The notes under the pieces: model-generated
The model's input: the letters and a program-made list of their open reading frames with translations, nothing else
The model's database searches: none
What the model was told of the DNA's origin: nothing
Position numbers and translations under genes: made by a program
Shown: piece by piece, positions 38,757-64,000 of the stretch
Layout of the letters: each line of letters starts with the position of its first letter
Numbering within the stretch: position 1 is the stretch's first letter
DNA from: Thunnus maccoyii
Taxonomy: Eukaryota > Chordata > Actinopteri > Scombriformes > Scombridae
Direction: 5' to 3'
Assembly (NCBI RefSeq): GCF_910596095.1
Contig: NC_056540.1
Coordinates: forward strand, 14,067,001 to 14,131,000
DNA: 64,000 nt

Positions 38757-39480
38757 TTAGATCCTCTTGTTAACTCTTTTGAATGTCACACCCTTCTCTC
38801 CGGGAATTACGCAATTCTAGAGGACAAAAGAGAAGTTAAAAAGACAATTTAGGATAAATGATAACAAACTACGACTTCTATTCATGTTATTGAAGTTACA
38901 ATGAGGATTATTATTTAGTGAGTGGTTACTTCTCTTACCATTACAAGCTTATCATCAATGATCTCTGCTGTGAAGAGGTACTGAGGAAACTGTATTGAAA
39001 TCTTGCCGCCTTCCAAAGTGACAGGAGCCTATAAGGTCATAAGGACAAAAGGGTCACAGAGGAAAACATCCAATCAGCTGTAAGATATTTTCAAATCTTT
39101 ATTTTAACTCACCTTGAATTTGGAGCCCATCATTGTGTTCAGCTCACATTCCTGTCCTACGGTGAACTTATTGGACCAGGTCCAGTTGGGGATGGTTTGT
39201 GTCCAGGTGAAGTCGTTCCCATCCTGAAGCACCTCTGTTACCACTTTGTGGTCTGTCTTGGCGTTGAGAAGCCCTGCGGCAGAGCAAGCGACATTCCAAA
39301 AACAGACATTTGACAAGTTGAAGTTAAGCCAGTGACGCCTGATGAGTCACATTTATCTATTTTGTGATATTCATGGTTTTTGTGTATCAATAAAAAATAA
39401 TAAAACATGATACCAATTGCTTCCAGAAACTCCTCATAGTTTTCTTGAGTCTCCAGCTCATATTTCCCAGTGAAAGCCAT
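38757..39480 (-). CDS. fabp6: Fatty acid binding protein 6, ileal (gastrotropin)
   Basis: A small cytosolic lipid-binding barrel protein; in vertebrate ileum it carries bile acids. Four exons on the minus strand, 39414-39480, 39113-39273, 38939-39028 and 38757-38816, give 125 aa with the four-exon structure of the FABP family. The start MAFTGKYELETQENYEEFLE is close to human FABP6 (MAFTGKFEMESEKNYDEF). VVTEVLQDGNDFTWTQ and NKFTVGQECELNTM are FABP6-like rather than liver-type, and FKRVNKRI closes the barrel. GLLNAKTDHK replaces the usual helix-turn residues and PNWTW replaces a His/Gly-rich loop, so the pocket rim has diverged. A TATA box lies 36 bases upstream. Convergent with ccnjl, as in mammals. 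Confidence 0.9.
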
Positions 39481-39515
39481 GTTGGTGAAAGAGAAGAGAA
39501 GAAGTAAGGAGGGAG

Positions 39516-39521
39516 TTTATA
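39516..39521 (-). promoter_or_regulatory. fabp6: fabp6 TATA box
   Basis: On the minus strand CTTATAAACTCC stands 36 bases before the ATG, implying a very short 5' UTR. TATA boxes are usual in FABP genes. Confidence 0.65.
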
Positions 39522-39529
39522 AGACAAAT

Positions 39530-41330
39530 AGAGAAGAGGAGTGGCCTGCTGCTGAAACTCTTTCCGACCTTTATGAATCACTGCCAACCCTGACTCTTCT
39601 TCTCCTCCCACTCATACCAAAACATGTGCCAGTCACACTGTAAGTTGACAGATGTATGTCAAAAAATGACAGTGGTGTCGTCCAAGACAGTTTGTTGCAT
39701 TGTGTTTTGTGCTACAATGTTGTCATTCGGCAAAAATCCAAAGTATTTTCCCGTGTCTGTTAGCATCAGGTTTTTCCATCAGTTCTGTCATGCTACATGA
39801 AATTCAGTTACTTTGCAAGCTGGAACATGTACAGTGTAGAAAAAGACACTATGACCATCGCCCTTTAAACAGAGGTGATTGTAGGCATTTGATTTTCTTT
39901 TCTTCTTCTTCAATTTTCTCTGAGATTCAACACTTATTAAAAAATAAGATCCTTGACTGAAGTCAGCAGCTGTGGTTAAAACATGTGATGCCTCATGTTG
40001 GGAAAAGCCTGAAGAGGAACTGCTTCAAAAAAACAAACAAGACCAAATCAGCAGATAAGCATCAACCACCACAACACTGTATACAATGAATATTAACTAT
40101 CTGTTACAATTATGGCCTGTGGTCACTGAGAAATTTGTCAGAGCTTTGGACCAACAGTCCAAAATCCAAAAGATATTTAGTTTACTATCAAAACCTCCCA
40201 GCAAATATTCACATTTGGCTGCAATCTGTGAATTTTTGTCATTTTTACTTACAGACTTATTTAAAAGATGAATCGTTTTTCAAAATTGTTGTAGATTAAT
40301 TTTCTGTTGATCAACTAATCCGTCAATTGACTATTTCAGCTCTAATCTCTGAGAAGACTATTGATTGGTGAGACTGTGTGCCTGAAAGGTGCTGTAACAT
40401 GAAACATGGAGCTTTTCAACAGAACCACTTTTCTTTCAGCTGAAATGAGTCAAAGACATTGAAGGCACGAATTATTTAGGCACCAAATAATCAATTTATT
40501 GTTAACTACAGCCCTGAATCAGGATAAGTTGTACATCTAAGAATATCAATAAGTTGTAATTGATGTGCAGGTCATTCTTGTCCTGAGTGAACAATGCACT
40601 TACTTGTTTCTCTCAGCTAGTAGCAAGCAAGTTAACTTTATTTATACAGCATTTTTCAAAAGAGAGGTTACAAAGTGATTTACAGGAAGAGAAAAGGGAA
40701 AGAGGGAGGTAGAGAAGACCTAATATAAAACAAGGTGAAAAAAAGTTATAAAATCAAGAAAAAGCCAAAGTGTGAAGTGTCAAATGAAAGCTTTCTAGTT
40801 GCGGCTACAGTCCTACACAGCCCATAATCACTGTCACACTGTAGGATATTGAAATCTATGCAAATGTAGAAGACATTTGTGCAATTGGTTCTCATATTTT
40901 GAGTCTCATTAAATAATTATTGATCGATAACGCAAAAATGCTCAGTGGGTCAGCCACTCTTTAATCTTTTGTGCTGCATCAGACACATGTCTGCATGTGT
41001 TTAATTCAAAGTGAGAATGTGAGATTAATATCTTAAATACATTAAAGAGGTTCTGCACACTTAAACATGTTTTTTGAGCTATAAACTAAATTATATGGCT
41101 GTACTGTGATGAAACACATCAATGCTGGTGTTAATATTGACATTGACACCAAATTTATAAAAGTCATTTTCAATAATTATTTAAATTCAATCACTGTAAC
41201 AACATAAATATATAAAAACAAGAAATACATGAAGCCTGTGCCTGTAATACAGATATGAAGTGACCCTCAGCACCATGTTGTTGGGTTGACTGGAATGACT
41301 CAGCGAGAAATCAAGAGTGTTATTAAGCAG
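39530..41330. other. Spacer upstream of fabp6
   Basis: No gene seen. It holds one 'TTGCAGCC' family copy and, near 40620-40800, a stretch beginning AACTTTATTTATACAGCATT and followed by AAAGTGATTTACAGG that resembles a common fish interspersed repeat. Confidence 0.4.
40095..40345. repeat. Interspersed 'GTTGCAGCC' repeat, copy 5 (reduced)
   Basis: AACAGTCCAAAATCCAAAAG, GTTTACTATCAAAACC, AATATTCACATTTGGC and GATCAACTAATCCGTCAATT are family segments; the usual terminal GCAGCC is lost. Confidence 0.5.
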
Positions 41331-41339
41331 ATTGAAGGA

Positions 41340-41800
41340 AAGGTGGTGAGAGCAATGTGAGGAAGAGAGGAGAGGATGATGGTTTTACAGAGTTCAAAGT
41401 GGGAGAAATGAGTTGTGTAGGAAGGAACAGGAGAGATGAGACAATAATATCAAGACTTAGATTTGGACTAAACAGAGCACTATTCAAAACAAGTAAACAT
41501 AATACAGGCAGATGTGACTGCTGTTGGCAAGAAGAAACAGTCGAGCATGTTATGATGCACTGTCAGGAATTTGAGGCAGAAAGAAGGCATCGGATTCAAA
41601 ACCTCAGAAAGATAAAAGTACACTTTGAACTCAAGAAATGAGTGTTATCAAATTTGATTAAAGATACGAGAGTTTTTTTGTTTGTTTTTTTAATGAATTT
41701 TTAATGAATATTGTAAATACTAAACATTCTGATCCACATTCGCATGCACCAATTTGTTTTTTGCTAACTGCCAATAAACCTCAAAGAAGAAGAAGAAGAC
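41340..41800 (+). mobile_element. 3' fragment of a non-LTR retrotransposon (LINE)
   Basis: The frame at 41357-41641 contains ETIISRLRFGLNRALFKTSK, then CDCCWQEETVEHVMMHC. This zinc-finger-like ending with 'ETVEH...C' is characteristic of the C-terminus of LINE reverse transcriptase proteins. A short AT-rich 3' UTR follows, with CCAATAAACC and a terminal GAAGAAGAAGAAG tail. Everything upstream is missing, as expected for 5' truncation. The clade cannot be fixed from so little. Confidence 0.7.
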
Positions 41801-41889
41801 TGGAATGATCTTTGTATTTCCAACAACATTTGAAGGCACCATTTGTGTCTACCTGCAGGCACTTCAGATGACAGGCTTTCTGTCCTGAG

Positions 41890-42535
41890 GTGAAGTTTCA
41901 TGGTCGGGTGAAAGTATGACTGTTGTTAAGTAGGAGCGGACTATATAGCCTATTCTGGGGTGGTAGAATTGTGAGAAATGGCCTCCAAACATGCTTCATT
42001 AGACATGCTGACGGACCATGCTGAGGATCTATTTCCAGCTGAATTTTGCGTTTTGTGTGTTTGGGATCATTGTCATCCTCTCCTGCCAACCCTCTTGAGA
42101 CTGGAAGTCATCTTTTCATTCAGTATTTGGGTAAACAAACTTTCATTCATAGTGTCATCTATAAATGTCATCTCCCCTACACCTTTTGCCCTCACACAGC
42201 CCCACATCAGCACACTCCAACCTCCATGTTTCACGGTCGGCACTGTGCAGTCACTGTGGTAGCCCAAACACGCTGGACCCCATCTGATCCAAACAAATTT
42301 ATTTTGGTTTCATCTCACCAAAGAATGTGCCGCCAGTATTCATCAGGCTTCTCTTCATGTTCTTTGGCAAAATTGAATCTTGCAGTTTTGTGCTGTTTTG
42401 TGAGCGATGCTTTTCTTTCTGGATGTCGTCTGTTGAGACTGACTTCATACGCTGTCTGAGGTTTTGGCTTCTGTTCAGTAGCCTCTTGTACCCTCTCCCA
42501 TCTTTATGAAGTCTCACAATCTGGTCTCCTGTGCA
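41890..42535 (-). mobile_element. Tc1-like transposase remnant with internal deletion
   Basis: Minus-strand frames read in order: IVRLHKDGRGYKRLL (helix-turn-helix start), a block ending FFGEMKPK (out of frame for the WSDETK catalytic motif), HGGWSVLMWGCVRAKGVGEM, and DDNDPKHTKRKIQ, holding the second catalytic Asp. The sequence passes from the DNA-binding region almost directly to the first catalytic motif, so several hundred bases are missing. Frameshifts separate the blocks. It is a plain DNA transposon and clearly dead. Confidence 0.8.
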
Positions 42536-42539
42536 ATAT

Positions 42540-42800
42540 GCTCATATGCCATACTTGTTTACTTGTTTACTTGTGGCTAAATTGCATGCTGCTAACTATT
42601 TATTGTTTATTTGCACACTAATAACACCATGAGTACTATTTTGTATAATTATTTTGTTTTATATATTATATTGTACTTTATAGTAATCCTGACTTTTTGA
42701 CTGTTTTAATATCAGGGAGTTCCATCATAATTTCACTGTGTTGTCATCTTGCACAGCAGTAAAATGACAATAAAGCTTTCTTATCTTATTCTTCTCTTCT
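42540..42800 (+). mobile_element. Probable 3' tail of a second LINE
   Basis: TTTATTGTTTATTTGCACAC, a T/A-rich run, then GCAGTAAAATGACAATAAAG and the short tail CTTTCTTATCTTATTC. The 'gacaataaag' plus short tandem tail is a familiar LINE 3' end in fish. No coding sequence remains. Confidence 0.45.
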
Positions 42801-43058
42801 TACTTGTTCAGACAGATCATCACCATGTGGAGCCATGTTGCATTAGACACAACTCAAGCCAAAAACTGAGAAGGTTGCGGTGTTCTTTTATAACCTTGTT
42901 CAAGCAATTAGTCTTAACTGGAAGTCACAGATGTCCTCTCGTTTGTTTCACTGAGATTGTACGTTGAGGCCTGTAACATCTGACAACCACTATGACAATC
43001 TCAAGAACTTTTCTTTAAAAATCTAAAGTGTGAATCCTCTAATATGAATGCCCACCAG

Positions 43059-43288
43059 ATACACTTGAATACAGAAAGAAGTACAACATTCAAACAATTT
43101 TGGATGAACTCCTTACCGAGGGGGTTATTCAACATACAGCTTACAAAAAAATCAGGACTTGCTGTACCTCTGAGGAGAATATGAGGGAACTTCTTGATAT
43201 TCTGAAGAGTTGGAGGCAAAAAATGTTTTCTAGAATCGATGAGAAACTGGAGCTGCATCTTATTGAGGACATCAAGACAAATAAATAA
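43059..43288 (+). pseudogene. CARD-domain exon, NLRP1/ASC type (relic)
   Basis: After an acceptor-like CCCACCAG, an open frame reads TILDELLTEGVIQ, AYKKIRTCCTSEENMRELL and MFSRIDEKLELHLIEDI. This is the 3' two thirds of a caspase-recruitment domain of the kind that ends fish FIIND-CARD proteins (pattern ILDELLxxGVIxxxAYxxI, TSxxxMRELL, LIEDL). The frame is open to its stop, but the first helix lacks a clear beginning and no intact upstream exons were found. The typical GG-containing loop is shortened to SW. It may be the last exon of a vanished copy, or belong with the FIIND pieces downstream. Confidence 0.65.
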
Positions 43289-44657
43289 ATGTTATAGTGA
43301 TACCCAAAATGTTTTATACAATCACACCAGGAAAATATTTATAGTTCTGCTGTATCTCTTTAGTTTGTTAATGCAAATTGCCATTTTACACTATTTTATT
43401 TTTAATGTACTTTATGTTCATGTATGTTTTACTTGTACATAGTTAAAATGTTTTGTACTGTCATCTCTGTTTTGATCAGTGAGGCTAATTTATAAACTAA
43501 AAGATTAGTAAATAAATAAATTAAGTTGACGTTTCCTCCTGCCAGCTGGAGAAACAGATTGCAATGACCATGAGTAACTAATGACAGTTGTCCTTCACTA
43601 TTTAGATTAATTGCTCAGTCGGGGGAAGTGATGACTGATACAGCAGCCAGAAAACTTTCGGAAATGTCAGGATAAGTGTGAAAGTGAGAAGATCCTTAAC
43701 TGTCTGAAGCATCCTTACTGACTTGTGGACCCTGTGCCTCTCATTGTATCCTTGATTTTACATTTGAGACTTGTGAATTGATGATTACATTCAAAAATCA
43801 ATATTCAAATGAAGGTAATTTAAAAGTTTTCTGTATAAATAGAATTCAAGCTGTAAAAAAACCCCAGAAGGTCTTTTCATAATACTTACCTTATTTTTGA
43901 AGACATAGTCTTATCTGAAATTCTTAAAGGCGCTTTCATCCTGCTGTTACAAAAACATTAATTAAGAATCTAATTATGAATCATTACATTACAACATCAT
44001 TACAACTACATTAGATTAGACTTGATGATGAAGATGTTGAATGTTAAGATGCAACATAATCCCTGAGGATGACTGGACAACACTTGAACCTGAGGTGAAC
44101 TGTAGATGCACAAGTTGTTTTAATGTGCAGGTAAAAAAAAAAAAAAAAAAACCTTCAATACTGTCAAAATACAAATTTTCACAGAAGGAGAACTGAGATA
44201 TTTTTCAGTGTTGTTACCATTATTATGATCATGTTACATTTAACAGCAAATAAAAACAATAAATATGCTAAATGTATTTGTTTTTCCTTTCTCAAATTAG
44301 CCTACAGTCTGAAGCAGGTGACTCTCACTGAGTTCAGTGTCTCTGGCTTGTGCTTGGTTTGTGAGTAAAACGTCAGCTTCAAGTACCATTTTGGCTCTTG
44401 GGAGGAACACATGGAGAGACTGGAAACCATGTAATCCATGACTGGAGCTCCCCTACTGGACATAACCGTCATTGCTGGAAGTATTTCTGCCTCACTGGAT
44501 CTGCACAGGTAAGATAGCATGACGTAATAAAAAAAGAAGTGACAACTTTATTAATGTTTGATAGCAGGTCTGTAAAAACCTTGATGGACTCGTCTTTTGT
44601 GCAGTTAACAACCTTGATGTTCTGTACATAGATACCTGCGGAGATGTTGTGGAACAA

Positions 44658-45325
44658 CTAGAACTGCAAAATTTGACCATATCACTCCAGTCCTAATCTC
44701 CCTTCACTGGCTCCCAATCCAAGCCAGATGTGATTTTAAGGTGCTTCTCTTAGCTTATAAATCACTACATGGGTTTGCACCCTCATATCTTTCTGACCTC
44801 ATCACCCCTTATACTCCCCCTCATGCACTCCGATCACATGATATCTTACTGTTCCTAGAATCAAGAAAAAAATCAGTGGGCAGTTGAGTGTTCTCCTACC
44901 GAGCTCCCTGTCTCTGGAACCAGCTACCTCTTATAATCAGGGAAGCTACTTCTGTTGAAATCTTTAAATCTAGACTCAAAACATACTTATTCTTACAATC
45001 ATATGACCTGCCTTAACAACATTGACATGGGTTGACATAGTCTTTTCCCTCACCCCACTGAGGCACTAAGGAAACTGTCGCACTAAAATCTCGATTCCTG
45101 CTTTCAGTTGTAGTGATGTTTCACATGATGAGTTACTTCAGATGGTTTTCTGTGTTTTGGACCACTTTTAAATGTATCTTTTTTTTCCCTCCTTTTGTGT
45201 GTGTTGTCCCTCCTCGACTCTCTTAATATTGGTCGATTGTTTTAACATTGTTTGCTGCTGAAAAGTGTATTGAGACACCTTGGTGTGATTTTGCACTTTA
45301 AATAAAATAAACTTTACTTTAACAA
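44658..45325 (+). mobile_element. L2-type LINE 3' fragment inserted in the FIIND exon
   Basis: Translation gives HITPVLISLHWLPIQARCDF, LLLAYKSLHGFAPSYLSDL and APCLWNQLPL followed by FKSRLKTYLF: the well-known C-terminal end of fish L2/Maui-like reverse transcriptases. The 3' UTR ends with TTTAAATAAAATAAACTT. The 5' part is missing. AACAA at 44653-44657 and 45321-45325 may be a short target duplication. Confidence 0.8.
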
Positions 45326-46054
45326 GGTGACACCAACCCATGTCAAATTATCCCAGCCAATGTTCTCTCCATGAGGAGTCCTGATGAGAGTCAACCTTCC
45401 AGTAAAAAATTAACTGTGAAGTGTTAATATATAAGACCGACAAAGCATTCCTGACACTACATGTTCATCTGATCCCTTGTGATGCTGCTCTTCAACAGGT
45501 TATGACAAATCTTAATACCAACATATTGATTCATGCTTCAAAAGGCAGACAAAACTCTTGGCTACTGTAACCCCCGAAGCTTCATTGTGCTGAGAATAAC
45601 TCCCTCCATAGACGATAAAAAACAAGGAATTATCCAGCGGATACAAAATGATCCAAAAGCCATATCCAGAGAAGTCCCTGAAAATGTGCAATCATTTCAT
45701 CATCATAGCTGATATGGACAGTGCAGTACAGTTTTAATTTTATATGTTACTGTAGAAGAGTCTCATAGGCTTTTGAAATATATTAGGCCTTCATAGTGGC
45801 TAAAGTTGTTGAATGTAAAATAAAAAACCCCAACATTTTAATTATAATCTCAAACATAATTTGTTTTATAGCTGTCAGTATGGCCAGTAGCTTTTGCCAT
45901 GGAAATGTTTTTCAAAGATATCCTGTAATATCTAATATAACAGGGTTTTCAAAGACAATATTGCGCTGCTGACCATCTTCCAAAAGATATCAGAAACCAA
46001 GACCACACTGATCCACATTCTACTAAAACAAACTCTGGGGCATTAGAACTAAAG

Positions 46055-46310
46055 GTTGAATAGTTTGACATATTAGAAAACACGCTTCTTGCCAGAAGTT
46101 AGATGAGAAGATCAATATCATATCTCATATCTGCCTGTTAACTATGCAGCTACAGCCAGGAGACGGTTAACGTAACAGGAAACAGGGGAAACAGCCAACA
46201 TGGTTCTGTCCAAAGGCAACAAAATCCACCTCCTAACACCTCTAATACTCACTGATTACCAGGTTTCCTCTTTCTCTTTGGCTCCCTGCCTTAAGACCGC
46301 TTTGATCCAA
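46055..46310. mobile_element. Short inverted-repeat element 'TTGACATTTTGGGAAAT', copy 2
   Basis: AATAGTTTGACATATTAG, AACAGGGGAAACAGCCAACA and TGGTTCTGTCCAAAGGCAAC match the family internal region. It sits among the FIIND relic exons. Confidence 0.6.
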
Positions 46311-47577
46311 ATTAGGATATCAAAACATTTTTCTTTACCTTATTTGACAAATTAAGTATTAGTTTTCACTTTTTTCTAAATGAACCCTGGCACAAAGTCT
46401 AATTCTGCTTTTCTCCTTGATATTTCTCCCACAGAAGTTAAAGCTCATATATGAAAGTAGTGAACCAAATATCTTTGAAGTGTCTTCAAAGAAGTCTTTG
46501 AAAATCCAGAGAGTAACATCAAGCTCACATTAAAAATGAGTCTGGACCAGTGTGGACCTGTGCAGTTTGAAAAGGTCAGTGGTTATAAAACGATATTAAT
46601 ATTGTGTATCTACGCTACTTATGTGCCACAATTATTTAACTGAAACACCTTGTTAGGGAATAAAACTACAACATCACCAAAACTAAAAATGTCCATATTT
46701 TGTTTCTCTACATTTTATTTAAGATGACTATAAAACACTGGTGATATACAGGTGATGTATGAGAAGACACTGATGAGTATCTAGAAGTTTAAAGTGTCAT
46801 AAAATCTGGAGTAGATCTTCCATATACAGTTTACAAACCCGATGATCGTCTTGTTCATACATTTCTGAGATATCCTACTTGAGTATTTACCCAGCAGCGT
46901 GTCAGCATGCAGCTCACGTCTGAGTTGTTTCCCCTCGTCAGACTTTTTTTGGGGGGTATGCTATAATTTAAGTTAAATGGTTTAACACCACCAGACTTTA
47001 ATACATTGTAACACTGATGTTATTCTTCACACAACACTCACATTGTGAATAAACTGTAATATTAATCATTCAAATTTGCAACAAATAATGATATTAAGAC
47101 CTGCTAAGCTACTGTATGTTTACCTCTGGTATCTGGTAGCCATGCAGATATTTTCAGTTTTAAATACATATAAAACTGAAACTATCTGTATATATTTTCA
47201 GTTATGAGATATTTGATTTTTGCTGCCAAAGCAATGAAAAATGTAATTGTTTATTTGCTCATTTGGATCTATTTTGGTTTTATTTATTAGTATTTGTTGA
47301 GGATTAGGGGCCAAATTATTAACACGGGTGTATAAGGATGAAATTAAATTTGGTTCAATTCATTTTGTTTGAGTAAGAAAACCCATTTTGTTTAAAAATA
47401 GATCTCAGAGTCGTACTATAATGCTAAAGACATATTTATTTATGGTTTTACCTGTTAAAGTTAAGTAAGGAAACAATATGGGCTATATTAGTATTACAGT
47501 GTTACATAATATTTTTAATAGGCGTATTCATCTGTAACACCATGAACCACCTTAATTTTTTGACTTTATTTTTCTAG

Positions 47578-47849
47578 AAGCTATAGTGAGGCTGAAGTTT
47601 TAGGAGGGGGTGTACAACAAAGTCATTAGTCAGCTGCTGGATGACCTTTTGGAGGATGGTGTCTTGAATGATGGGGAGACATATTCAATACCACAGGAGA
47701 ACCCTGCCAGAGCGGGAAGGTCACGCTGCCTCATTGACACAGTAAGAAGAAAAGGATACAAAGCCAGCTGGAAGATGATTAATTACCTTCAAAGCAGAGA
47801 GCCCACACTTGATGCTGAGCTGCAGCTTCCCTCTGCTCTACCTGCTTAA
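47578..47849 (+). pseudogene. CARD-domain exon, caspase-1/NLRP type (relic)
   Basis: An acceptor TTTTTCTAG precedes a CARD: VISQLLDDLLEDGVLNDGE, ARAGRSRCLIDTVRRKGYKA and MINYLQSREPTLDAELQL, matching the pattern LLDxLLExxVLNxxE, ARxLIDTVRxKG, LxxxDPxL of fish caspase-1/NLRP CARDs. A TAG interrupts the frame just before the first recognised helix (RLKF then stop then EGV). It lies about 1 kb after the last FIIND piece in the same direction and is probably the terminal exon of that dead gene. It is of a different CARD type from the one at 43.1 kb. Confidence 0.7.
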
Positions 47850-49745
47850 CCAAATAAGTTCTGCTTCAGCAGAGCTGATCAGTGTTACTGAACCAGGAGA
47901 ATAATGACAATAATTTCAGTCCCTGTAATGTGCCTGAGCCAGGGAGACCTTTCTGCGCTTTTGTTCAGGTGTGACACTCTATAGTATATTGAAACTATAA
48001 TATAATTTATAAAATTAATAAAGAAATATAGTTTTGAACAGTCATAGCAGCTGTATTTTGTTTTTTCTTGCAGAATTCAAGGAAGAACGAAATACACACT
48101 CATCCCTGCTGCTGGTGCACTGACAGAAAACTGAAGAGTGAAGATTCTCATCATTCATCATATTATCATTATACAAAAGGACCAAGGGGCATTTGTAAAC
48201 TTAAAATCAGTGAATGTTATGTACACATATATAATGTATTTTGTATACAGTTTTTTTCTGTAATTTGTATTAGCAAATAAGTTTTGTAGGAATTGTAATG
48301 CTGCCTGGATTATGTTCTTGATGTTTTCCTGCAATACTCACCACTAGCAGGAGCATGGGTAAATGTTTTTATGTTAAAGAATATATTTAAAGCGAATCAA
48401 TCATAATATGAATGTTTTATATTAACGATCAATACAATGATTTAAGTGTAATGTGGAAGAGGTCTGCTCAGCTCAATGCATGTGGGTTTATTGGTTTTCA
48501 GGACTCTAATTTCATCAACATTGTTTCCGGATGCTCCTGTTTCCAAAACACAGCTGTTGTTTTTTAGTGACAAAGCTCTGATAAACTCACTTTAGTGTAC
48601 TGTACCTGCCCAGCACCAAACAGCAGACAGACAAAGAACATAGCGGAGCGTTAGCAGCTAGCCAGACATCAGGAGTAGGTGATCCAAAATAGAGGTAAAA
48701 AGAGAATGAATTTGATATTCATATATGTTGTGTTGACTAAAACATGACCCAGCATTAATGATAATGTTTCTGTGTCTGCTAATGTGTAAATAAGCTGCTA
48801 ACATGTTCACCCTGAGAACTTTATGAACTGGTAATACTGTATCTTGTAGACAGCACAAAGACTGATTTCTAGGACAAATATTAGTCCACATTTAGATTTG
48901 TTAAAAAGCACAGCGCCCAGCTATTTTGCAAAATTATTTTGCCTTTTTTAAATAAAAGAAAGTACAGTATATATACAGTATTTACACTGTGCTTGCTACT
49001 AAGGAAGCTACTTGTTACACTTGCGAGCACTGAAGCACCCACACTGACAAGAAAGAAGTGGCTGATACAGAGTTTCAACTCAAGTTGAATTTTTTAACAT
49101 CTTCATCTCATGTTGGACGCTTAGAGCAAATCTCTGGTGCCCACTCACATCTCTCCATTGACTTTTCCTACAATCATCCCACCTCTGAAACTGCTTTGTA
49201 GTTTGTCTGAATACATCTTAAGACTCTCTCACAAAGATGAGTTAATATGGTGTTAAATTCACCTTAAAACCTAAGAATGTCAGCAGTGGCAGCAACAGCT
49301 ACAATACAGCTATTTAGTAAAAATGATAACAGTAATTATTATTATGTATTTATTTTGTCCAAATGGGCACTTCAGCTAAACAGGGCAATTAAAAGGCGCA
49401 CTGGCCTGGTCCCACTTATCACTCAACCACGTGTTCCTCCTCACTGGTGAAGTGGATGTAGAGCAGAGCAACAGTTTCCATGACAACAACATGTTAATTC
49501 TTTGACACCTGCTAAAGATATCACAAGCCATATTTTCCTTTTTAAAATTAAATTGTTTATTTATGAGTGCAGTTAATCATTTCATCCATTTTACAATTAT
49601 GCAACCTACAGGAAGGTCTCCGCATTGTCTGACACTCCTCTTGGGATCTGACAAAGCAATCCCACCATAAGGTCCAGTTAGTAGCTGTTGCTTTTGATTG
49701 TATCTCACAATCTTCCTCAACAGAAAGAGTTTGCCCAGTTGTCAC
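47850..49745. other. Spacer after the immune-gene relic
   Basis: AT-rich. A good acceptor (TTTTTTCTTGCAG) at 48073 precedes a short frame (FKEERNTHSSLLLVH in one register) that could be a further decayed exon, but I cannot assign it. Nothing else recognised. Confidence 0.35.
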
Positions 49746-49749
49746 TATC

Positions 49750-50220
49750 GTGTTTCCATTAGATTCGCAAGAGAATTTTAAACAAACTTTTGAAAAAAGG
49801 GAAGGAAAATGGGAATTAAGTGTATTTCCATCAACTGGTTTGAAGTGAATAAACTAGGCTACGTCAGAAGATGTAAATGGGGGAGACAAAAGATCAGAAG
49901 ATGGTGGTATAGGCTTAAATAATCCACCAGTAACCAGAGTAGAAGAAGTAGATGTTGCCAACTGGAAACAAAACAAATAGTTATATTGCCTTGACGAGAG
50001 AAAAATGGAGAGAGATCTTCAGGAATTTGTTTCAATTGGGCAAGTTGTAAATGTTCTGAGTGAATGAGTTAAACATTCGCTACGTCATTTATGTGACAAA
50101 TGCATTTCCATTCCACAGAAGTTTTTTCATAAGTAGTAATACATACATATATAAAAGTGTTTTCAAATTTTCACATTTCCACTAAGCTTTTCTGATGCGA
50201 TAATAGGTTAATGGAAACAC
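49750..50220. mobile_element. MITE with GTGTTTCCATTA inverted ends
   Basis: The left end GTGTTTCCATTAGATTCGC is matched by the inverted right end GTGTTTCCATTAACCTATTATCGC in its first 12 bases and more loosely inside. Further 'ATTTCCAT' repeats occur near both ends. No coding capacity; superfamily not decided because the target duplication is unclear. Confidence 0.65.
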
Positions 50221-50390
50221 CGCTACTCAATTATAGATATTCAAATTTCCATTTTAGCTGATCTGGAGATCAAAAACTCAGAACAGCAACTGGATGGACC
50301 TTGTGGTGAGGTTTCTTTGTCAATTTCTGTTTAGACTGGACTTTCAAACCCTACTCTTAAAATGTTTAAATTAAATATAACATTGAATGA

Positions 50391-51512
50391 TCATCTTGAA
50401 ATAGTCTCTAAGGTAACAACAGTGTGTGTTTGCCTAAAAAAATGTGAGTATTCCAAACCTGCTCGTAAGTGCCTACCCAACGACCCACAACCCAACATGG
50501 TTACAAATGCATGACGATAGTTCTTGTTGAATAAGGCGTAGAGAAAAGGGTTCAGAGAAGAGTTAGCGTATCCAAGCCACATGGAGGCCTCCAGGACGAG
50601 GGGGTTGATGCTGTAGCCCTTCAGAGGGTGGACCACATTCACACAGAAGAAAGGAAGCCAACACAACAGAAAGACCCCCATGATCAGACCCAATGTCTTA
50701 GCAGCCTTCCTTTCCTTCTTCAGAGAATATCTTTCCACATGGACTCGTCTTGTGGGGTCAGTCCTCATGGAGCTCTGATTCATCTGAAGCTGCCCAGTAT
50801 GGTGCTCGATTGCATGAATCCACCTCGCTTGTCTCTGGGCAGCCATGAAAATCTTGCCATAGGCAAACAGCATGAAACCCGTGGGGATGAAGAAAGAGAT
50901 GGCTGAGGTTGCAAAGGCGTAGGGGATATGAAAGGAGGCCTGACAGGTCTGAGTATCCTGCTGTGTGACGCTGCTTTCCGCAGCAGGAGGCGACTGGGTG
51001 TACATGCCGAAGGAGACGCAAAGGCAAGAGATGATCAGAGGCAGGATCCAGCAGAGCAGCAGCAACAGGGCCACACGTTTGGGAGACATTCGGGAAAGAT
51101 AGTGCAGTGGGTCGCACACTGCTATGTATCGGTCCAGCGCCACACAGCTGAGATTAAAAATGGAGGATGTACAGAAAGACATGTCCAGCAAGAAGTGAGC
51201 TTGGCAGAAGCAATGCCCAAAGTACCAGCCGTCGATGGATCGCACCAGACTGAAAGGCATCACCAGCACAGCAACCAGGAAGTCAGCCACTGCCAGGGAA
51301 ACCACAAAAGCATTGGTGGGTGTCCGAAGGCTTTGGAAACGTGCCACTGCAGCCATGATCAAAAGATTTCCCATGATGGCAAAGATGGGGATGGGTAGGA
51401 GCAGACACAGTACACAAACTTTAATAGTATTGCTGTGAAATAGAGCCGAATCACTGCCGTCAGTAGTCAGGCTGTTGTTGTCTGAGGTGTTCACCCCTGG
51501 GATGTAAATCAT
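50391..51512 (-). CDS. Class A aminergic G-protein-coupled receptor (trace-amine/serotonin-like)
   Basis: A single-exon, uninterrupted 373-residue seven-helix receptor. Key positions: N49 (TM1), D77 in LAVADF (TM2), C103 and C190 for the extracellular disulfide, D110 in LLDMSFCTSS, the amine-binding Asp3.32, DRY at 127-129, T202/S203/S206 before P210 in TM5 (catecholamine-like serines), CWLPFF at 284-289, and NSSLNPFLY at 317-325. NTS at 8-10 is a likely N-glycosylation site. SLVRSIDGWYFG and ALDRYIAVCDPLHYLSRM resemble trace-amine receptors, but TM7 lacks their NSxxNPxxYxxxYxWF signature. KKERKAAKTLG in loop 3 is common to biogenic-amine receptors. It is probably Gs- or Gq-coupled by family, which I cannot tell. 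It lies 1.26 kb beyond the end of adra1b coding, same strand. Subtype and ligand unknown. Confidence 0.85.
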   Translation of the reverse strand: MIYIPGVNTSDNNSLTTDGSDSALFHSNTIKVCVLCLLLPIPIFAIMGNLLIMAAVARFQSLRTPTNAFVVSLAVADFLVAVLVMPFSLVRSIDGWYFGHCFCQAHFLLDMSFCTSSIFNLSCVALDRYIAVCDPLHYLSRMSPKRVALLLLLCWILPLIISCLCVSFGMYTQSPPAAESSVTQQDTQTCQASFHIPYAFATSAISFFIPTGFMLFAYGKIFMAAQRQARWIHAIEHHTGQLQMNQSSMRTDPTRRVHVERYSLKKERKAAKTLGLIMGVFLLCWLPFFCVNVVHPLKGYSINPLVLEASMWLGYANSSLNPFLYALFNKNYRHAFVTMLGCGSLGRHLRAGLEYSHFFRQTHTVVTLETISR

Positions 51513-60800: not shown

Positions 60801-62814
60801 GACTCTGCTCAGTGAGCCCTTCTGCCTGCACTCCATTGTAAATAAAGACTTAGTGTTTTCTTAACCTCCTTGCCACCACACGGCCCACAGCGTGAGCATT
60901 TCACCTCAGAATATATTGTTTAATTTCCTCTGCAGTTTCTTGAAAAAGCATGACGGTGTGGTTGCCAGTCTCAGTGGCATCAGGGGGCCCTGACAGGCCC
61001 CACAGGCCTCTGGATCAACTGACCAGAGCAGATGGAGGCCACCTACTCTTCATTTGGCACACGTAAGGAGTGTATTTGTTGTGCACCAACAGATTAACTG
61101 AGACGCAGTGAATAATGCACAGATAACACTAATAATGTTTGGATATGCTTGTGGAGAATTTCTTCTCTGACTCCAAAAAACATGTTTTCTATCCCTCCTT
61201 ATGGGCCCTGAATTCAGAGACTACGTCAGTGTGGCAGTGAGGCTTTTGACATGAGGAGAATAAATGCTGCAGAATTGGAAAATTTGTACAAATATAAAGT
61301 CTGGCTCAGAAAATATGACGCAAACTAACTTAATTATATATAAAAGAGGCTGAGTATTTGTAGAAATAATACTGTTACTGCGCCCTAAATTAAATGCTGC
61401 AATAATATATGAGTGATGTTATTCTATATCCCTGCAGTTTAAAACGACCACCACAGTATATCAAAGCCCACTCATAGGTTTGGTGACAATTCAGAGCAGT
61501 AAATGCTACCCCAGAGACTTTTCCATTGCCAGCTATAGATATGATTTACAAGGCCTGCAGCTGCCTTTAACTGCCTCGCGTTAACTTACAGACATTTAGA
61601 TGAATGCAATATCTTCTCTGCAAGTCTCATTAACTAATTGAATATCATGAGGTTTTTTAAATTGGAGCCGGTTGTGAGAGAATGTTTGCAGTATTATATT
61701 TTTTGTTAATGGACAAACATAAGTTGCATTTATGACTTACATCATAAATGAAATGATCATAAGTCAACATCATAAGCCAATTTATGACCACATCAGGAAA
61801 TGAGCGCGAGGGAACAGTGTGAACTGACCCATTGAACCTACCTATGGGCAAGGCGAGGAAGAAGGGCAACCAACAAAGCGTAAACATGCCGACCACAACT
61901 CCCAAAGTTTTGGCCGCTTTCTTCTCCCGGGAGAATTTCAGAAGTTTCACCGTGAGGGAACTTCTCGCCTGGTGCGCGCGGCCCTTGCTGGTGCTGGACG
62001 TACCGGGCTCCTCCTGCACCTGAGATCCCTTGTGGATCCTCAGGGTCAGCTCGCCGGAGTTCATCCTCTCTCGCATCACCCCGGCCTCCAGGTTCTTAGT
62101 GGTCCGTTTGGCGACTATGTACACCCGGCAGTACATGGCCAGTATAACGACGAGAGGGATGTAGAAGGAGCCGAGGGAGGAGAAGAGCGCGTAAAAAGGC
62201 TCCTCGGTGATGGGGCAAACCGTGTCGTCCGGCGACGGCGGCTGCTTCCACCCGAGCAGCGGTCCAATGGAGATGACCACCGACAGCACCCACACCCCGA
62301 GCATGGCCAGCAGAGCCCGCTTCTCGGTCACGATGCCCGGGTACTGCAGAGGGTGGCTCACTCCGATGTAGCGGTCGATGGATATTACGCACAGGCTCAT
62401 GATGGACGCGGTGCAGCACAGCACATCCACCGCCGCCCAGATATCACAGAAGATCCTACCGAACACCCAGTAGTCTAGGATCTCCAGCGTGGCCGACACT
62501 GGCAGCACCGTAGTGCCCAGCAGCAGGTCGGCGATGGCCAGGTTGATGATGAAGTAGTTCGTCGGGGTCCGCAGGTGCCTGTTGCACACCACCGAGAGAA
62601 TGACGAGGATGTTGCCCGCGATGGCGAACACGATGAAAGCCCCCAGCACCAAGGCGAGCGGGATGGCTCGGGTAAGGGCCACTTCGCTGGGTTCCGTGTG
62701 GTTTCCCCCGGAGCTGTTGGTGAAGTTGACCTGGGATGACACACCCGGAGCCCCGTCGAGTTCCGAGGAACCATTTTTCCACAAGTTTGTGACATTGTCA
62801 GTGCTCAGACTCAT
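52772..62814 (-). CDS. adra1b: Alpha-1B adrenergic receptor
   Basis: Gq-coupled receptor for noradrenaline and adrenaline in the plasma membrane. Exon 1 is 61842-62814 and exon 2 is 52772-53337, joined in phase 1 after LPIG at the end of TM6, exactly where the ADRA1 family intron lies. Product 512 aa (human 520). The N-terminus has five N-glycosylation sequons (NVT, NGS, NFT, NSS, NHT). Key residues: D130 in [11 protein letters not shown] (Asp3.32), C123 and C200 disulfide, DRY 147-149, S212/S213/S216 before P220, [12 protein letters not shown] (293-304), CWLPFF, and [11 protein letters not shown] in exon 2. [18 protein letters not shown] and the tail [17 protein letters not shown] choose subtype 1B over 1A and 1D. 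The tail has CQC, a possible palmitoylation site. The intron translates to a spurious FNGSVHTV extension if splicing is ignored. Teleosts usually have two 1B copies; which one this is cannot be told. Confidence 0.95.
53418..53790. mobile_element. Short inverted-repeat element 'TTGACATTTTGGGAAAT', copy 3 (both ends present)
   Basis: Left end ATAGTTCAACATTTTGGGAA and the inverted right end AAAGTTTGACATTTTGGAAA form terminal repeats of about 25 bases. CCTCTAAAGCTCACAAATAA inside matches the other copies. It starts 81 bases upstream of adra1b exon 2 in the transcript sense, within the splice-acceptor region's flank. Confidence 0.7.
56205..56640. repeat. Interspersed 'GTTGCAGCC' repeat, copy 6
   Basis: GTTGACTGATTAATCAACTA at the left, AACAGAAAAGCAAATCC and CGTTTGATGAATCAATTAAT at the right. 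The ends form an imperfect inverted pair. Confidence 0.5.
57761..57829. repeat. (CA)n microsatellite
   Basis: A near-perfect run of about 25 CA units after ACACAGACACACAAACAC. The long frames on both strands here are translations of the repeat. Confidence 0.95.
58215..58420. repeat. Interspersed 'GTTGCAGCC' repeat, copy 7 (partial)
   Basis: CAAGCAAAAATGCCAAAAG, CCAGCTTCTCAAATGTGAGG, TTTGCTGCTTTTACTATA and ACCAATCAATCAAGAAAAC are family segments in the usual order. Confidence 0.55.
58528..58742. repeat. Interspersed 'GTTGCAGCC' repeat, copy 8 (best preserved)
   Basis: Runs from GAACTGCAACGATTAGTCGA to TAAAAGTTGCAGCCTTA. The end GTTGCAGCC is the reverse of the left CTGCAAC, so the element has short inverted ends. 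Internal CTAGCTTCTTAAATGTGAAT and CTAACTGAATATCTTTGG are diagnostic. Confidence 0.65.
59840..59871. repeat. (CA)n-(CG)n microsatellite
   Basis: About twelve CA units pass into CGCGCG, then CAGACAGACA. Confidence 0.9.
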
Positions 62815-64000
62815 TTTGACTCGAGAGGTCCTCCATAGCAGGCTTCAGATCACTTGTAACTGCAACTCACGAAAGAGCGTAAACAAACATAAATAAACCG
62901 CACAGATGGTCTTAAGTCCGCATGGTTTAATTGCGCGTTTGCAGTTTTGTCTCCAAATCGGTGCTGAGATGTTTCATCAGAGAAAAGAGTTTACTGTGCA
63001 GTCGTACAGTCCCCATGCAGTCCCGCTCCCACCACTCTCCTGAGGGCTCAGTGGAGAAGTGAGGGGGGCAGCAGTCATCTCCTGCCTCCTCTCCACCACA
63101 CACAGCTCTGCCATATACTGACCAAACATACCTAAACACGAGCCTATGAAGCGCGCATGACGCATCATTACACGAGGAGCCGTGACTCCACAGAAAACAT
63201 CTATTTGCTTCATTTTTATGCAACTTTGCGGGATGGAGCAGAGAGTTGCGTTTTCAGAGAAGCGCCTCTTTGTGTCTTGCATTTGTTTATCCTCACTGTG
63301 GGAGGGTGCTTAACTGGACAATTACAAGTGAAAGAAGTTCGTGCCAAAGCCACCTATTGTTGATTTTAAGTTAAGAGGTCTTATATGCTTTCATGGCAGT
63401 AAAAAGGAGAAAATGCAGCATATAAAATTAAAATCGTAGCCTCATTTGTTCCAGTGTAAATAAGCCTTGAAATTAATCAGTTTCCTTCTTTATGTGGTCC
63501 CCGAAAATATTCAGGATGCTCAGGCAGGCAGCTTAAAAGATTAAGCCTGGAAGGTCAAATTGATTAAGTTCAAAAGTAGATAATAAAATCACATACAATC
63601 CCTCTCTCCTACAACAGGTATTTCTTGTGAAATAGATTCCTATTTTGGTCAAACGCAGGAGTCCCTCAAAGTAATCTCAGTTTGCATGCGAGCTCAGTTC
63701 GTGAGGAGTGACTGATTTAATGGGCTGAGTTCAGACACATTCCTAAAATTGTGGTTCCTCCTGTTTAAGAGGTTTTAGGTTACTTATGATGCAACACTGA
63801 TGAAGGATAAATACAAGCAAAAGGTGCCTCAGAAGAAACCTGCCAAAGATTTGCAACCATTTATTGGACAGTAATTTACTATAAACACAAACTCCTACCT
63901 TTTAGGGATCTTTAAAACTCTGAGGGTGGTTTTAACTCATAAACCAGACGGAATGTTTGACATTTACAACCATTTAATACCAGATTTTACATTTGATATC
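62815..64000. other. adra1b: Upstream region of adra1b
   Basis: Presumed 5' UTR and promoter of adra1b (minus strand). CpG density is high in exon 1 and falls quickly after about 62940. No TATA box or strong named motif was recognised, and no further gene begins before the window ends. Confidence 0.4.

Follow-up and report, generated by a model that had tools for sequence, protein, structure and literature searches.

The 64,000-nucleotide stretch of the Thunnus maccoyii genome analyzed here (the window) carries on its plus strand the remains of a FIIND gene accompanied by two CARD exons. The locus probably represents a decayed segment of an inflammasome gene cluster and not one dead FIIND-CARD gene. 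Along the plus strand, it would consist of the terminal CARD exon of one gene (CARD1), the ZU5 and UPA exons of a FIIND gene and the N-terminal CARD exon of a caspase-1-like gene (CARD2), all three in one orientation and interrupted by a retroelement fragment. CARD1 (43085–43285), located upstream of the FIIND, is a second CARD of the locus that was not named in the first-pass annotation, which had joined the FIIND segments and CARD2 into a single dead module.

Positions 40001–49000 were scanned with Pfam profiles in six whole frames, without preselection of pieces and with stop codons replaced by X. Five plus-strand matches exceed the curated cut-offs: CARD (PF00619) at 43085–43249 (1.5e-6), FIIND profile positions 19–71 at 44330–44491 (3.1e-8), FIIND profile positions 74–128 in a second frame at 45240–45395 (7.8e-6; 26.0 bits and barely over the cut-off of 25.8), UPA-FIIND profile positions 1–47 in a third frame at 45409–45537 (3.1e-6) and CARD at 47595–47825 (5.4e-9). 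The three minus-strand frames contain no FIIND, UPA or CARD match, only a weak match to a transposase helix-turn-helix and one match at 0.21. The ZU5 profile is followed by the UPA profile, as in FIIND proteins, and the first-pass reading of ZU5, UPA and CARD segments in order, broken by stops and shifts of frame, is borne out by the scan. Preselected pieces score like the whole-frame scan except for the three later UPA pieces, which give no Pfam match when tested singly. No NACHT or LRR profile is detected in the plus frames of 40001–51500, where the exons may have been lost, and no PYD is detected in the window scans (six frames of 40001–49000 and plus frames to 51500).

The FIIND-UPA pieces joined in order were compared with solved proteins by phmmer and retrieved NLRP1 (1.4e-13 for entry 6x6c, and 1.8e-12) and CARD8 (1.2e-11), in alignments that run through the F-S cleavage site; the UPA3 portion of this query, also used in a comparison with paralogs, ended in a wrong frame (GPVQFEK). 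NLRP1 and CARD8 score alike, and on these scores the fossil would not be assignable to CARD8 over NLRP1. The F-S autocleavage dipeptide is found at 45363–45368 (MFSP, 45360–45371) and the conserved histidine is kept as LPHW in the first ZU5 exon, both aligned with NLRP1/CARD8 and with paralogs. The reading frame across the FIIND domain is interrupted by stops, indels and a retroelement insertion. Because the frame is broken, the window FIIND cannot have autocleavage activity. Relative to the paralogs, two in-frame TAA codons are located in the first ZU5 exon and a TGA close behind the F-S site. The 4-base insertion and 11-base deletion in ZU5 and an 11-base insertion in UPA are unique to the window among eight aligned rows; a 13-base UPA gap is common to the window and the contig-22 copies and is not damage. 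The insertion at 44660–45325, which gives no match in the profile scan, is presumably a non-LTR retrotransposon fragment, to judge from its peptide.

Codon positions were compared at 549 sites, after sites were dropped that were gapped, had fewer than four of five contig-10 rows agreeing or had the two contig-22 rows differing. Changes at positions 1, 2 and 3 number 27, 9 and 22 on the window branch versus 5, 8 and 28 on the contig-10 branch (Fisher p 0.004 for third versus first plus second positions). To judge from these counts, the contig-10 branch changes as a gene under selection does, and the window branch does not. The NLRP1 match, the stops, indels and retroelement and the lack of a third-position bias like that of the relatives support the first-pass interpretation of a dead FIIND gene related to NLRP1/CARD8. 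The fossil would be a previously undescribed dead copy in a known family.

The relatives of the fossil were sought in one genome, the T. maccoyii assembly (782 Mb, 54 contigs), in which the counts of FIIND, CARD and PYD matches are lower bounds. At least 67 FIIND exon matches are present, many of them paired, with one exon covering approximately profile positions 4–82 and the other approximately 79–130. The window FIIND is the sole one on its contig among the matches listed. Among 46 loci compared at the DNA level, contig-10 and contig-22 copies match the window's ZU5 and UPA exons in order at ∼68–86% identity, and splice sites and some intron-edge bases are common to the window and these paralogs. 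In a tree built from first FIIND exons (30 rows, 26 of them different, with L007/L019, L008/L020 and L002/L048 being duplicate places), the window groups with five contig-10 rows and two contig-22 rows (98/95), apart from the other FIIND rows. The five contig-10 rows comprise four from an array at 9.0–9.34 Mb and one at 3.29 Mb.

The two CARDs of the window belong to different kinds. The CARD tree was built without repeats and near-copies (L039, L009, L046, L048, part of L019, L015, L018, L002, L006 and L003) and without L049 and L050, which were added later. In this tree, CARD1 groups with nine CARDs, eight from contigs 10, 13 and 22 and one from contig 7 (97/96). CARDs of the CARD1 kind follow FIIND genes on contig 22 and also occur in the contig-10 array, and both of the compared CARDs beside the contig-22 sister FIIND genes are of this kind. 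A CARD1-type CARD on contig 22 (L036, 8717–9109) lies in an open frame that is continuous with upstream sequence and is cut short; the upstream sequence is presumably a retroelement. On contig 7 (L038, 34.39 Mb), a CARD precedes a same-strand FIIND first exon by ∼1.3 kb, an order opposite to that in NLRP1.

CARD2 groups with all six caspase-cluster CARDs (100/99), outside the ten CARDs located behind FIIND exons. It matches at least 23 places including itself; its nearest relatives are contig-6 CARDs (57, 56 and 56%) and contig-11 CARDs (53–55%), and the matches on contigs 21, 9, 4 and 2 are weaker. At the DNA level, CARD2 matches at 1e-3 only the six caspase-cluster loci among the 46 loci compared, and its exon end is in register with the caspase exons. 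Among solved CARDs, ICEBERG (1.2e-6) and caspase-1 (2.5e-5) rank ahead of CARD8 (0.013), below top rows occupied by repetitive designed proteins. A caspase-domain piece of L043 (c1, the first query, from which all results of this search come) finds its like beside five of the six caspase-cluster loci including its own, with L040 as the exception; such pieces follow each of the three CARDs on contig 11 and two of the three on contig 6. CARD2 is therefore a CARD of the kind found at the N-terminus of caspase-1, and the peptidase domain of caspase-1 is missing; it is probably not the equivalent of the C-terminal CARD that NLRP1 and CARD8 carry behind UPA in the same gene. In comparisons with single-letter shuffles (40 each), the DNA behind CARD2 matches L040 above the shuffled level (44 versus a maximum of 34 in 40). 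The closest CARD to CARD2 is that of L040 (contig 6, 20.80 Mb). It is followed by a stop, has no caspase piece within 1.5 kb and lies 5.4 kb upstream of L042, a CARD with caspase exons behind it. L040 would be either a CARD-only gene or a dead caspase start.

A CARD of the FIIND-clade kind upstream and a CARD of the caspase kind behind argue that the locus is not one module, and this part of the first-pass annotation is not supported. At least 73 CARD matches occur in 782 Mb, and ∼0.0005 would be expected per 5 kb if they were evenly spread, an expectation that is merely a guide because CARD exons cluster in the genome. Two CARDs within 5 kb beside a FIIND are hardly a product of chance, and the pieces are therefore most likely the remains of one cluster stretch. 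They would derive from one stretch of DNA, in which CARD2 would have been part of a whole caspase gene. Several observations weigh against this interpretation. The bootstrap of the FIIND tree is unsettled, and the window rows have long branches in both trees, which comprise 64 and 87 columns. CARD1 reaches only 0.46 (NLRP1) against solved structures. On the window branch, codon position 1 exceeds position 3 and position 2 is low, a departure from a flat pattern (p 0.007 versus evenness). The shuffled level is not exceeded by any of the other five caspase-cluster loci behind CARD2, nor by any of the six in front of it. Because Pfam detects no caspase domain downstream to 51500, CARD2 is not shown to derive from a caspase gene; caspase pieces likewise find no match in the window by tblastn, and L040, the nearest intron match, itself lacks such a piece within its 1.5 kb. 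The 22 other CARD2 matches listed are all on contigs other than 10 and 22, which leaves the window neighborhood without a second example among them.

One dead FIIND-CARD gene, with ZU5-UPA followed by its own C-terminal CARD at 47604–47849, is an unlikely source of the locus. The pieces are on the same strand in the right order and are separated by a ∼1-kb intron with its donor and acceptor kept, and FIIND loci on contigs 21, 9, 4, 2 and 10 (2.24 Mb) carry broadly similar CARDs. The placement of CARD2 inside the caspase-cluster CARDs, its restriction to those loci in the DNA comparison and the different kind of CARD beside both contig-22 sister genes speak against this origin. The last UPA exon is in phase 1 and fits the phase 1 of CARD2, which suits a single gene and equally allows an exon-shuffled chimera, in which a FIIND gene captured a caspase-1 CARD exon and later died. 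An earlier assignment of the third UPA exon to phase 0 (GPVQFEK), which could not splice to CARD2, was rejected because the open frames of contig 10 show phase 1. The lack of a caspase domain behind CARD2 and of similarity to the caspase-cluster loci in front of it would also suit a chimera. The similarity to L040, however, extends behind CARD2, beyond the exon alone, and the terminal TAA aligns with sense codons in L041–L043 (L040 has the same letters, but its frame ends earlier); a chimera is accordingly rather improbable.

A decayed cluster piece accounts better for these data than two further origins do, both of which have a negligible probability. A processed retrocopy of a FIIND mRNA is refuted by the kept introns, since an intron with splice sites lies at the paralog position between the ZU5 exons and further exon-edge splice sites are kept; as open paralogs have the same introns, the window contains a dead DNA-level copy. 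Chance resemblance in noncoding DNA could be suspected because the short pieces are weak singly and the three later UPA pieces are missed by Pfam, but five matches over curated cut-offs are ordered on one strand and the identity to paralogs spans several FIIND and UPA exons.

The nearest FIIND relatives of the fossil are surrounded by PYD exons. Contig 10 contains at 8.98–9.35 Mb (L012–L018, L026, L028, L031 and L033) a tandem array in which at least 12 FIIND first exons are accompanied by numerous PYD and CARD exons, and 11 of the 12 listed FIIND first exons have a same-strand PYD 3.8–7.4 kb downstream. The PYD exon behind UPA has no ATG before the domain in all four copies read and a TGA directly after the domain in the three copies whose end was read (L026, L028 and L031). 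The PYD frame also ends in TGA in L022 and L025, is open in L020 and is cut off in L033. A FIIND-UPA-PYD-CARD gene on contig 10, suggested by the positions of the exons, was considered and rejected, as the PYD frame ends in TGA in all contig-10 copies whose end was read and the PYD-CARD join is unsupported. Tentatively, the fossil may be an outlying dead member, with its PYD lost, of a FIIND family whose freed C-terminal part ends in PYD (UPA-PYD), although this is doubtful: in both copies read on contig 24 an ATG precedes the PYD, and one of the two lacks the TGA behind it. If such a family exists, direct recruitment of ASC or of fish caspases with a PYD would be expected of its UPA-PYD sensors. 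A further arrangement is observed on contig 21 (3.169–3.214 Mb, L001–L006), where six copies combine the whole FIIND (profile positions 2–128) and a CARD in one open, intronless frame of 557–697 residues and are possibly of retrocopy origin.

Features of the locus and its neighbor (positions in the window)
Feature	Position	Strand	Remarks
CARD1, degenerate terminal CARD exon	43085..43288	+	stop at 43286-43288; first 16 profile positions unrecognizable
Probable exon remnant, conserved stretch before FIIND, then GT donor	44069..44130	+	DNA match in 5/5 compared contig-10 copies of this FIIND type
ZU5 (FIIND) exon 1	44301..44508	+	two TAA stops, 4-base insertion, 11-base deletion; LPHW kept
Intron between ZU5 exons, GT...AG kept	44509..44604	+	position as in contig-10 and contig-22 paralogs
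ZU5 exon 2 and first UPA strand	44605..45520	+	split by retroelement fragment; F-S kept, TGA soon after
Presumed non-LTR retrotransposon fragment (limits approximate)	44660..45325	+	breaks paralog alignment; ORF 44618-44884
Second UPA exon remnant	45609..45722	+	DNA match to contig-10 and contig-22 FIIND loci
Third UPA exon remnant	46435..46574	+	AG acceptor and GT donor kept
CARD2, caspase-1-type CARD exon	47578..47853	+	internal TAG, TAA at 47847-47849, no GT at aligned donor place
Aminergic receptor ORF, uninterrupted, 380 residues	50391..51533	-	neighbor, outside the fossil

The first-pass annotation had placed the fossil between fabp6 and adra1b. The minus-strand open reading frame (ORF) at 61660–62844 is clearly an adra1 gene by its protein matches, which do not separate alpha-1A (1.5e-116) from alpha-1B (2.9e-115), so that the family stands and the subtype is unsettled. 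On the other side, a first exon of the fatty-acid-binding-protein (FABP) family at 39241–39516 on the minus strand matches liver FABP/gastrotropin weakly (best 4.8e-5), with a Pfam score slightly below the cut-off; its identity as fabp6 is plausible and unproven. The aminergic receptor ORF, absent from the first-pass annotation, sits between the fossil and the adrenergic receptor gene, and its best solved relatives are 5-HT4 and then dopamine D1A. Slu7, a C1q/collagen gene and a cyclin N-terminal exon are located to the left of the fossil. Beside CARD1, a weak Tc3-type transposase helix-turn-helix match (42357–42440, minus strand; 4.4e-4, below the cut-off) is perhaps a remnant of a Tc1-like transposon. 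To our knowledge, the mammalian counterpart of this interval has no such FIIND-CARD gene.

The C-terminal part of NLRP1 and CARD8 is released by loss of the N-terminal part. The living FIIND ancestor would have worked likewise: it would have cut itself between ZU5 and UPA at F-S, the N-terminal part would have restrained the C-terminal part, and loss of the former would have freed the latter to seed a caspase-activating filament. According to the literature, self-cleavage of the FIIND of NLRP1 and CARD8 separates ZU5 from UPA, and caspase-1 is then activated via the end domain of the freed C-terminal part (PMC3210808, PMC9978379), fish NLRP1 contains NACHT, LRR, FIIND and CARD domains (PMC9978379, PMC12436146), and in one survey some fish NLRPs end in FIIND-CARD (PMC11508797). 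Among the papers listed, none on the fabp6–adra1b interval or on fish FIIND fossils was found by title or the start of the abstract, in a coverage that mostly excludes subscription journals. The locus suggests a joint turnover of the FIIND sensors, terminal CARDs and caspase-1-type CARDs of a fish, with remains left outside their present arrays. It also cautions that the right domain order in a fossil need not mean one source gene. The more useful lead comes from the living relatives on contig 10, in which PYD exons take the place of the CARD of NLRP1 and CARD8.

Compared with the known FIIND family (PF13553 and PF23679; NLRP1 and CARD8), the window shares the ZU5-UPA order, the F-S dipeptide and the LPH motif. 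It differs from NLRP1 and CARD8 in being dead, in having no NACHT or LRR profile in the plus frames of 40001–51500 and in having no end domain of its own identified behind UPA. Teleost caspase-1 resembles the window in the CARD2 exon and differs in the peptidase domain, which is absent behind CARD2 to 51500; a CARD prodomain is described for sea bass caspase-1 (PMC3511578). The contig-10 array contains the nearest FIIND relatives of the window, with the same introns, but has PYD exons around FIIND, of which the window scans found none. The contig-22 FIIND-CARD genes belong to the same FIIND clade as the window, and every CARD read in them is of the CARD1 kind, but these CARDs are located downstream of FIIND on contig 22, whereas CARD1 is located upstream of it in the window.

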